From positions 64,501-128,500 of the forward strand of contig OW568895.1 in NCBI GenBank assembly GCA_938743325.2: a stretch of 64,000 nt of DNA. The letters are read 5' to 3'. Shown piece by piece: positions 21,943-24,671 of the stretch. The notes under the pieces are model-generated. The model saw only the letters and a list, made by a program, of their open reading frames with translations. It was not told where the DNA came from and made no database searches. Position numbers and translations under genes: made by a program. Position 1 is the first letter of the stretch. Each line of letters begins with the position of its first letter. Source of the stretch: Pycnococcus provasolii. Its lineage: Eukaryota > Chlorophyta > Pseudoscourfieldiophyceae > Pseudoscourfieldiales > Pycnococcaceae.

Positions 21943-22389
21943 ACGAAAACAGTAAAACACAGAATGAACAGAATGCCGGAAATGAGGAAATCACCCGAAC
22001 CCTAACCCTAACCCTAACTCGAAAACCCGAAACGAAACAACAGCCTGCTTGAAGCCTTGAACCATGCGAACAAATCCCCCCCCGGGGAACTGAACGGGAA
22101 CAGCTGAAGCAGACAACAAAATACAGGTACTGTAACCGAAAAGGGCAACAAGAAGTTATCTGATTTATCTCCCCTTGCTTGGTAATATTACATGCATGAG
22201 GTGATACGTTACATTGTAACCACGTATATATGTGTCATATGTATGTCGATATGGCTTGTAATAATAATACCGTACATCATACGTTTAATCTAACGAGCGC
22301 CGCCACATTCACATTCACGTGAAGAGATCGTTCAGCATTCACAGACTCGTCAGTAGCATTAGTAGTCATTCAACACAACATAGTCTAAC
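21943..22389. other. Divergent intergenic region
   Basis: Contains the telomere-like tract at 21992-22019 and an AT-rich stretch (22150-22300). Just before the plus-strand start there is a CT/CA-rich leader. No gene is visible. Confidence 0.5.
21992..22019. repeat. Telomere-like CCCTAA tract
   Basis: Four CCCTAA-type units (CCCGAACCCTAACCCTAACC...) in the divergent spacer between the small membrane protein gene and the solute-binding-protein gene, about 50 bp upstream of the minus-strand start. Confidence 0.8.
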
Positions 22390-24162
22390 ATGGTGGTATA
22401 CGCAAAGCTCGTTACCGGGCTCGCTTTCGCTTTCGGGTGGGCGCTGGCGACGCTGACGCCCCTGCTGGAAATCAAAGCCGATGATGATGTGGCGTTGTGC
22501 AAGAAGATGGAGTTGGACTTCATCGTGCTGGAAGGCGACGCGACGTCAAAGGCGATCGAGGACGATATCGTCAGTGACTTGAAGAAGGTGGGCATCACAG
22601 TGAACACTCGTCTTTTGAATAAAACATTATTCAACGAGGCCATGGTCGATGGAGACTTCAACATGGCTTTCTCGGAGACGTGGGGGGCGCCGTACGACCC
22701 GCACGCGTACGCTGCGTCGTGGGCAACGCCGGACGAGGCATACTATGCCGCCCTCAAGGGACTTCCCCCGCCATTCACGCAGGAGGTGCTTAAACAGAAG
22801 GTGACCGAGGCGCTGCGTAAGGAGTCCGAGGTGGAACGCGAGGATGCGTGGACGGAGATTCTTACCGCCATGCACAAGCAAGCGACCGAGCTGCCCATTT
22901 CCAGCAAGCGCATCCCGGCTGTTATCAACAAGCGACTTACCGGATACACGCCAGGACATCAGCAGTTTGACTATCCGGTTCACACGCTCCGCGTTCTGAG
23001 CGGCTCGAGGAGCATCACCGTTGCTCCGGGCGCGCAGAGTGGCCTCTTCAGCAACGCTACCGGTGTCGGACGACTGGACGCGCACACCTACCGCCCGAAC
23101 GAGTTCTTCGCTAACAACTGGGTCTACGACGGACTCGTCGAATACGGTCGAGGTGGCGCCATCATTCCAAGCCTCGCCGCCTCGTGGACCATCACGGACT
23201 CGCCGGGGGGCGGCCAAAATTACACGTTCAACCTCCGCAAGAACGTCACCTTCCACGACGGCGCCGACTGGAACTGCACCGTCGCTAAGCTCAACTTCGA
23301 CCACGTCCTCATTCCGCCGCTCCGCACAGGTGACTGGCACGGGTGGTATGGCCTGCCCGAAGCGATTGAAGGATGGAACTGCACGGATGACTACACCTTC
23401 GTCGTTACGACCAAAGACAACTACTATCCATTCTTGCAGGAGCTGTCCTTCATTCGCCCGCTTCGCATGATGTCTCCGAACATGTTCGTAGGTGGCCTTG
23501 AGAGCGATCCACTCACGCAGAATTCGTGCCACAAGGGCTCGACATTAAATGAGACAGACGGGAGCCCAAAACCGATCAAACACGACGGCATGACACTTAT
23601 GTGCGCCGGTATCGCCGACCCCGACGGAATCTTCGGCACCGGCCGTTGGAAGTACGACAAAACGATCAAGGACGGTGAGGGCAAGGTGCAGAAGGTGCAC
23701 TTCACCGTGAACCTCGACCACTGGGACGCGCCGAGCACGTCGAGCCAGTATGTGAACGAGCTGGTCTTGGTGACCTATCCGACCCATGAAGCCGTGAAGG
23801 CTGCGCTGCTCGACAACTCCCTCGACGCCGTGATCGGCGCTGGCGTCCTCACAGAGAAGGATGTGGCCGTGTTCAAGCGCGAGCACGCCGACAACTTCGC
23901 CGTGCCCTTGACCGAGCCGATGCAGAACCGAATCGTCGTGTTCAACACAGCGAAGGCGCCGACCAACGAATTGCAGACCCGCAAGGTGATAATCCATGCC
24001 GTGGACAAGGATACCATAATCAAGAAGGAGCTTGCGGGACTCGCTGCACCTGCCGAATCGCTCTTCCCAAAGGACGCGCCGTATAGCGGTGCTCATCTGA
24101 CGCCGCGTCCCGACTACGACTATGAGAAGGCTCGACTGCTCAACTGCCCCGAGCCATGGTGA
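22390..24162 (+). CDS. NikA-like family 5 solute-binding protein with circularly permuted halves
   Basis: 590 residues from the ATG at 22390. A signal peptide or anchor (LVTGLAFAFGWALATLTPLL) comes first. Bacterial NikA and relatives bind Ni chelates or peptides for ABC importers. Here residues about 38-200 correspond to the C-terminal part of E. coli NikA: compare SETWGAPYDPHAYA and the ATELPISSKR end with NRTWGAPYDPHAFL and VYLPISY. Residues about 205-590 correspond to the N-terminal part: LDAHTYRPNEFFANNWVYDG, IPSLAASWTITD, YYPFLQELSFIRPLR, GTGRW and FNTAKAPTNEL. The order is therefore swapped relative to bacteria. Several N-x-T/S sequons suggest passage through the secretory pathway. No ABC permease gene is nearby. 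A nickel role is inferred from similarity only. Alternatives are a fragment of a longer tandem-repeat gene with unseen exons, though the signal peptide and clean stop argue against that. Confidence 0.85.
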   Translation: MVVYAKLVTGLAFAFGWALATLTPLLEIKADDDVALCKKMELDFIVLEGDATSKAIEDDIVSDLKKVGITVNTRLLNKTLFNEAMVDGDFNMAFSETWGAPYDPHAYAASWATPDEAYYAALKGLPPPFTQEVLKQKVTEALRKESEVEREDAWTEILTAMHKQATELPISSKRIPAVINKRLTGYTPGHQQFDYPVHTLRVLSGSRSITVAPGAQSGLFSNATGVGRLDAHTYRPNEFFANNWVYDGLVEYGRGGAIIPSLAASWTITDSPGGGQNYTFNLRKNVTFHDGADWNCTVAKLNFDHVLIPPLRTGDWHGWYGLPEAIEGWNCTDDYTFVVTTKDNYYPFLQELSFIRPLRMMSPNMFVGGLESDPLTQNSCHKGSTLNETDGSPKPIKHDGMTLMCAGIADPDGIFGTGRWKYDKTIKDGEGKVQKVHFTVNLDHWDAPSTSSQYVNELVLVTYPTHEAVKAALLDNSLDAVIGAGVLTEKDVAVFKREHADNFAVPLTEPMQNRIVVFNTAKAPTNELQTRKVIIHAVDKDTIIKKELAGLAAPAESLFPKDAPYSGAHLTPRPDYDYEKARLLNCPEPW

Positions 24163-24671
24163 AGCTCACCGAGATGGCTCTCCGCTCTTGGAACCTCGCC
24201 TCTGAACCGAACCTGGTGAAAGTAAATGTTGCTTAGACGGGAACGCATCATCCCGGCATCGCGGAGACTGTTGGAGTTGTTTTTAATTTTAAGGGAGTTG
24301 GTTTGAGACCGTTGTAACACGTGGCATACGGAGAGTCCGAAACGGGTTCGGGTTCGGGTTCGGGCTAGGGCTAGGGTATTAGGGTATTAGGGTTAGGGTA
24401 TTGGGGTTAGGGTTAGGGCTAGGATATTCTTCCCCCTCCTCCCCTCCCAAACCCTACCCGGGAACCCTCTGGTCGTCCTCCCTTCACGTTCTGCGGCGGC
24501 GGCGACCCATTTTGGGAACTACGCCTCATTTTATTTTAGTCTCACGCACAAGCAACGTTAGATTCGACCAGCGAACCTTTTGATAGTGGTTTCCTGCACC
24601 TACTCTTAGTATTCTTAGTAGTGCTCTTATTAGTAGCTTACTGTCTAGTATCTATAAGTATCTTGTATAGC
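24163..24671. other. Intergenic region upstream of CCCH/RS gene
   Basis: Holds the 3' region of the solute-binding-protein gene, the telomere-like tract (24342-24422), and a T/A-rich leader with repeated TTAGTA motifs just before 24672. No gene is visible. Confidence 0.5.
24342..24422. repeat. Degenerate telomere-like repeat tract (TTCGGG then TTAGGG)
   Basis: Starts as four GGGTTC units, passes through GGGCTA and GGGTAT variants, and ends in GGGTTA units. It lies 3' of the solute-binding-protein gene and about 250 bp upstream of the CCCH protein start at 24672. Confidence 0.85.

Follow-up and report, generated by a model that had tools for sequence, protein, structure and literature searches.

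A predicted circularly permuted NikA-like protein of Pycnococcus provasolii and its algal family of candidate surface metal receptors

The NikA-like gene and its features

The window, by which we mean the whole 64-kb stretch of Pycnococcus provasolii DNA that was analysed, carries an open reading frame of 590 codons that runs from ATG to TGA with no internal stops (Table 1). SBP_bac_5 (PF00496) is the only Pfam family found in its product, matching in two stretches of reversed order and scoring 137.3 bits against a curated cut-off of 32.4. The best NCBIfam match is TIGR02294 (nickel_nikA), with 281.7 bits in three stretches versus a cut-off of 393; this score would be lowered because the order of the profile penalises a permuted member. 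An earlier sequence-only reading of this DNA had assigned the protein to the NikA-like family 5 binding proteins, which agrees with NikA being the closest match, and had placed a single signal peptide in front. The latter is probable, its sole basis being an N-terminal hydrophobic stretch (1.64 on the Kyte-Doolittle scale).

Table 1. Features of the window gene, with positions in the window (residue numbers are those of the window protein; C10 is a paralogue; counts refer to aligned relatives and to bacterial proteins)
Feature	Position	Strand	Basis or remark
Window ORF, permuted NikA-like solute-binding protein (predicted), anchor-less copy	22390..24162	+	intact, intronless, 590 aa
Putative signal peptide, residues ~1-30	22390..22479	+	hydrophobic stretch; boundary set by eye
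Cys37, adjoining new N-terminal end	22498..22500	+	Cys in 100/117 aligned rows
NikA C-terminal part, residues 38-201, profile 339-499	22501..22992	+	profile alignment, phmmer
Glu116, column of NikA Ni ligand His416	22735..22737	+	Glu in 112/113 reordered relatives
Junction of old C and N termini, residues 202-219	22993..23046	+	profile alignment, linker span
NikA N-terminal part, residues 220-584, NikA 6-317	23047..24141	+	phmmer
Cys296	23275..23277	+	Cys in 113/113 relatives; bacteria 0/76
Cys331	23380..23382	+	Cys in 113/113 relatives; bacteria 0/76
Cys380, opens loop absent from NikA	23527..23529	+	Cys in 112/113; bacteria 0/76
Cys405, closes loop absent from NikA	23602..23604	+	Cys in 111/113; bacteria 0/76
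Cys586, adjoining new C-terminal end	24145..24147	+	Cys in 112/113; bacteria 0/76
Remnant of old 3' end	24155..24249	+	77% alignment to last codons and 3' flank of C10

Telomere-like repeats occur inside the window at 767-838, 21994-22017, 24387-24418 and elsewhere, and flank the gene on both sides. The idea of a captured mini-chromosome, drawn from these flanks, was dropped because such repeats are common genome-wide, the 18-base telomere repeat having 2591 plus 2626 overlapping matches in the genome.

The two halves of NikA stand in reversed order

With respect to the order of the halves, phmmer against PDB sequences aligns residues 42-197 of the window protein with residues 340-492 of the NikA of entry 4oer, and then residues 220-374 with 6-153 and 414-584 with 157-317 (whole-sequence E 4.8e-60). 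The same arrangement is seen with E. coli MG1655 NikA, where residues 39-178 match 341-475, residues 225-367 match 13-148 and residues 460-584 match 198-318, and the B. suis-type and E. coli NikA entries of the PDB give a similar reversed alignment. Both halves of NikA are present, reversed, and cover nearly the whole mature protein, as would be expected of a circular permutation; by sequence comparison, the window protein is a circularly permuted member of the family 5 binding proteins that is closest to NikA. That the C-terminal part precedes the N-terminal part had been proposed by the sequence-only reading, and phmmer and profiles confirm it, with residues 38-201 followed by 220-584. Among the 38 matched sequences of solved structures, we found no permuted relative.

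A comparison of profiles gives the same picture. The normal profile combines E. coli NikA with 76 bacterial NikA-like proteins, and its columns were rearranged into permuted order to give the second profile. The best single domain of the window protein scores 272 bits with the permuted profile versus 144 bits with the normal one. Across 193 listed homologues and the three genome copies, the permuted profile scores higher in 195 of 196 proteins, and in 188 of 189 once seven fragments that lack the C-terminal half, for which this test says little, are set aside. The sole non-fragment exception (P0173) nonetheless has the C-terminal half first. The permuted profile is ahead in none of the 76 bacterial proteins; because these also trained the profile, they serve to check the direction and do not constitute an independent test.

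Searches with both halves (tblastn) found no other NikA-like piece in the 64-kb window. Genome-wide (32.3 Mb, 46 contigs), a six-frame PF00496 search of the best candidates returned three permuted ORFs only, with six matches, and a second P. provasolii record (P0001) also has 590 aa and is 99% identical over its full length, with 7 differences. Extra exons are thus not needed to account for the reversed order. Additional NikA exons restoring the usual order, named at the outset as what would overturn the permutation, did not turn up in this tblastn check of the window DNA.

Permutation as the norm in a detected algal family

The family set comprises three sequences from the P. provasolii genome and 193 distinct homologues, drawn from the best 120 each of 451, 297 and 611 proteins. 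Of these 196 sequences, 189 are permuted, 7 are fragments of the N-terminal half and none has the normal order; the homologues are ranked by likeness to permuted queries, and a normal-order eukaryotic NikA far down the ranking would not show. The permuted set includes transcriptome-derived sequences. Permutation is thus typical of the detected family as a whole and is not peculiar to the window gene, so that the earlier description of a permuted window gene stands as regards the permutation but not its uniqueness.

The named homologues, a minority of the 193, are all algal. Source names include Pycnococcus, Chloropicon, Triparma, Symbiodinium, Thalassiosira, Skeletonema and two Bacillariaceae, and taxids add the pelagophyte Chrysoreinhardia and the diatom Coscinodiscus wailesii. 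All six diatom-labelled relatives are permuted (two Bacillariaceae, T. exigua, T. profunda, S. menzelii and C. wailesii). Permuted relatives in prokaryotes were rejected: the permuted alignment detected 229 prokaryotic relatives, and of the best 80 bacterial loci among them 80 of 80 are in normal order. A viral carrier was likewise rejected: five stretches in viral contigs matched a pattern and none encoded a relative. Searches of the open-licence full text of PMC listed no paper as reporting this permutation.

For residue-level comparison, six fragments were removed before a 117-row alignment and 4 more before a set of 113 relatives reordered to the NikA order; the bacterial set has 76 members after removal of 4 of 80 ORFs by length. 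A tree of 34 of the 113 reordered permuted rows and 77 bacterial rows places all permuted sequences on the same side of a branch whose SH-aLRT value is 100, and the same split (33 versus 73) is obtained when five long rows are left out. These were quick trees, with no outgroup or bootstrap and with a long branch between the groups. Since the permuted sequences lie on one side of a fully supported branch, a single permutation event appears likeliest.

Cut site, junction and cysteines

Cys586 lies at about NikA residue 320 and Cys37 at about 339 (E. coli NikA alignment, extrapolated by two residues), so that about 18 NikA residues would be missing at the cut. A short linker whose length varies little connects the old termini, the span from Y195 to H232 being 35 residues in 84 of 117 rows and 36-40 in the other 33, and the new termini fall at one site in NikA. 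The cut sits between residues of what we take to be lobe II of NikA, and is therefore assigned to the second lobe. His416 of NikA also lies in lobe II, according to the available text of PMC11091072.

Mature E. coli NikA has no cysteine, and the window protein has exactly six, at positions 37, 296, 331, 380, 405 and 586. Fifteen of the 17 rows that lack Cys37 have a gap there, mostly in truncated gene models; Cys586 is present in 116 of 117 aligned rows. Cys37 is unscored in bacteria, as the reordered set begins at residue 38. The paralogue C33 has six cysteines within the domain. From these patterns we infer three disulfides in the permuted family, one of which, between Cys37 and Cys586, would probably staple the new ends. 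Counting against full pairing, 52 of 99 rows have an odd cysteine count between C37 and C586 and must therefore leave at least one cysteine free there. C93-C566 was rejected as an additional disulfide, the two residues not co-occurring.

The sequence-only reading had proposed that the permuted form arose when a gene was duplicated and its outer halves were then lost. This is plausible, but no intermediate was seen: NikA-NikA fusions were sought as such and none was found, P0121 and P0039 repeating the already permuted unit. P0121 (1320 aa) contains two near-identical permuted units joined by C-TLG-C where the cut-site cysteines stand, and may be real or an artefact of the gene model. P0039 (692 aa) begins with the end of another permuted unit, and is thus probably the tail of a tandem array.

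Tether, transport partners and known systems

Following the domain, a hydrophobic C-terminal segment is found in 164 of 196 sequences (threshold 1.6); in C10 it is a hydrophobic helix preceded by a stalk rich in Lys, Glu and Val. The N-terminal hydrophobicity threshold is reached by only 57 of 196, partly because of truncated gene models. A six-frame PF00528 search of the genome, in which intron-split genes could be missed, found no permease of the NikB, NikC, Dpp or Opp type; its two matches are sulfate permeases, a plastid-type CysT and a CysW. The earlier suggestion that the protein is not tied to an ABC importer is in line with this. ZIP carriers match at seven places in the genome, six of them over the cut-off, and urease alpha, a nickel enzyme, is present.

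The closest known system is ZCRP-B (Zn/Co responsive protein B), described from marine diatoms (Kellogg et al. 2022, PMC9010474). The available text of that paper describes a NikA homologue (30.5% identity) whose abundance rises at low Zn and Co and which is located at the cell membrane. It lacks NikB and NikC partners, and its homologues occur among diatoms, dinoflagellates and haptophytes; the text implies that overexpressing ZCRP-B did not increase Co uptake. ZCRP-B and the permuted family share a NikA-like domain that lies largely outside the membrane, a single membrane segment and the lack of a detected NikB/NikC partner, but its transmembrane segment is reported near the N terminus, whereas most permuted members have theirs at the C terminus, and the window copy differs in having no membrane anchor. 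The main text of PMC9010474 does not mention a permutation, nor do the terms "green alga" or "prasinophyte" occur in it. Given that six of six diatom-labelled relatives are permuted, ZCRP-B itself is probably permuted too, and the permuted family probably includes it. The earlier proposal of a cell-surface binder can accordingly be kept for the family (C-terminal segment in 164/196, ZCRP-B at the membrane) but not for the anchor-less window copy.

Among the other systems, E. coli NikA (TIGR02294) shares with the window protein both halves, nearly the whole mature protein, and R137, W100, W398 and Y402. The window protein differs in its reversed halves, its six cysteines versus none in mature NikA, the Glu in the His416 column, the approximately 18 residues missing at the cut, its score below the equivalog cut-off and the fact that no NikBC-type permease was detected in its genome. 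FBP1 and the phytotransferrin ISIP2a of diatoms are, like the family proposed here, algal surface metal receptors of periplasmic-binding-protein descent, and act with endocytosis; they belong to other families (FhuD-like; phosphonate-binding-like) and carry iron, and the available text of PMC7676907 does not mention a permutation in either. S. aureus CntA (NF047575, opine metallophore binding) is the second-best named family, at 180.9 bits versus a cut-off of 800; it imports Ni, Zn and Co (cited in the available text of PMC9010474), but is bacterial, has the normal order and feeds an ABC importer.

The genome also has 25 matched stretches of PF02492 (CobW/COG0523-type), the superfamily of ZCRP-A, partner marker of ZCRP-B. 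One of these stretches adjoins urease and is probably UreG, and one ORF of 1695 codons holds two.

Binding cleft and candidate cargo

Roles of the NikA pocket residues follow the available text of PMC11091072, in which His416 is a direct Ni ligand; we found no mention of His416 in PMC12086673. In NikA numbering, Arg137, Trp100 and Tyr402 are kept in 113 of 113 reordered relatives and Trp398 in 107, and the window protein retains all four. The His416 column holds Glu in 112 of 113 relatives, Asn in C33 and never His, versus His in 71 of 76 bacterial proteins. Furthermore, Met27 is replaced by Phe in 111 of 113 and Thr23 by Arg in 110 of 113, Arg97 is kept in only 24 of 113 and Tyr382 is Asn in 112. 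These columns suggest that the chelate-binding pocket is kept and its metal end rebuilt. Such a change speaks against the cargo of NikA; Zn or Co would fit, though it proves neither. The loss of Arg97 and Tyr382 indicates that the cargo may also be something else. The earlier reading had tentatively suggested a Ni/peptide binder; nickel is disfavoured, given the Glu in the His416 column (112/113) and the response of diatom ZCRP-B to Zn and Co. A likely function of the family is the capture of metal complexes at the cell surface, with Zn or Co rather than Ni.

The window copy and its paralogues

The window gene and C10 share 94.4% DNA identity. About 184 bp, encoding the stalk and transmembrane helix of C10, are absent from the window copy, whose protein, unlike C10, has no segment after the domain; the alignment to C10 resumes at 24155-24249. 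The join left by this deletion shifts the frame and so creates the stop codon. The stop just past the NikA midpoint, already noticed by the sequence-only reading, is confirmed and finds its cause here; it would reflect secondary loss of the anchor, making the window copy probably secreted rather than surface-bound. By comparison with C10, the window copy appears to be a recent anchor-less duplicate.

Over 579 codons, dN and dS between the two copies are 0.045 and 0.031 (NG86) or 0.044 and 0.036 (YN00), with no sign of purifying selection between them; since dN exceeds dS, the window copy may be decaying. Their 37 amino acid differences in the domain comprise 14 that look derived in the window copy, 9 that look derived in C10 and 14 that are ambiguous. 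Two readings fit the window copy: a secreted binder whose selective regime has changed, or a duplicate that is decaying. The third genome copy, C33 (L007 1439-3391, minus strand), is divergent, with a long branch, Asn in the His416 column and an ORF that has no anchor.

Proposed explanation and alternatives

We consider, with a probability of about 0.7, that the window gene encodes a secreted, recent copy of an old algal family derived from NikA by permutation, whose usual member is a surface receptor for a metal complex; the fold, disulfides, cargo, hand-over route and role of the window copy as a soluble binder are what we infer from sequence. The usual member would have a signal peptide and a two-lobed cleft, its chain starting and finishing where NikA formerly had its middle; a disulfide would bridge the cut, and a stalk with a single membrane helix would come last. 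Between the lobes, the Arg/Trp/Tyr pocket inherited from NikA, with Glu replacing the nickel-binding His, would bind a metal complex, for which zinc or cobalt is the likeliest metal. The bound metal might then be passed to a ZIP-type carrier or taken up by endocytosis, and not handed to an ABC importer. FBP1 and phytotransferrin provide a precedent for algal surface receptors that derive from binding proteins and act with endocytosis (available text of PMC7676907). A fuller historical account is a good deal more tentative: one permutation in an early algal lineage, which shifted the chain ends into the second lobe of NikA, with a disulfide in place of the excised loop, a gained stalk and the His-to-Glu change, may have turned a nickel carrier into a tethered Zn/Co receptor that spread across unrelated marine algae, with loss of the anchor yielding the soluble P. 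provasolii version.

The strongest competitor, which falls somewhat short of even odds, concerns the window copy only: it may be a functionless duplicate that has lost its anchor and is drifting, with C10 doing the work. The frame-changing deletion in a gene otherwise so close to C10, the excess of dN over dS by both methods and the larger number of apparently derived domain differences in the window copy (14 versus 9 of 37) all fit such decay. However, the rest of the ORF is intact, the six core cysteines and the pocket are kept, C10 carries changes too, and the anchor-less 590-aa form recurs in a second record of the species with 7 differences only. That the reversed order itself is an artefact of annotation or assembly, with missing exons restoring a normal NikA, has a negligible probability; the window gene is read as an ORF of genomic DNA, but the same order is found in three separate genes of the genome and in 189 of 196 sequences, transcriptome-derived ones among them, and no further NikA piece lies in the 64-kb window.

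With respect to cargo, a ligand of another kind (for example a peptide, an opine metallophore or some different organic chelate) is unlikely, although CntA (staphylopine-type) ranks second among the named families with peptide binders next, and many cleft columns are unlike NikA: all these scores are far under their cut-offs (800 bits for CntA), and the core of the NikA chelate pocket is retained. Slightly less probable still is a nickel receptor like NikA that is simply permuted and serves urease. The best family match is nickel_nikA, the genome encodes urease alpha, and R137, W100 and Y402 are kept, yet the match is under its cut-off, the column of position 416, with His in 71 of 76 bacterial proteins, has Glu in 112 of 113 relatives, Asn in C33 and His in none, and diatom ZCRP-B follows Zn and Co (available text of PMC9010474).

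If the preferred reading of a permuted receptor family is true, it represents a natural circular permutation that became fixed throughout a receptor family of marine algae, and a rare instance in which the topology of a two-lobed binding protein changed along with its job, from free periplasmic ABC carrier to tethered surface receptor. The permuted, putatively cysteine-stapled and tethered form would be new; surface metal receptors made from binding proteins are already known. For ZCRP-B, which has been proposed to mark zinc stress in the ocean, it also supplies a molecular interpretation that can be tested, covering its metal residue, tether site and independence of ABC importers. Automated annotation calls such proteins NikA, implying nickel; in view of the conserved His-to-Glu change, that name should not be taken literally.

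Other fusions

Fusions involving binding domains were also observed. In P0026 (981 aa), the permuted NikA-like domain is preceded by a fused class-III binding protein (PF01497; its best NCBIfam match is TIGR03868), and P0065 (944 aa) has approximately 320 residues of coiled-coil-like sequence followed by the permuted domain. At L094 958-2985, a PF01497-like binding domain is joined in one ORF to a weak diphthine-ammonia-ligase-like part.
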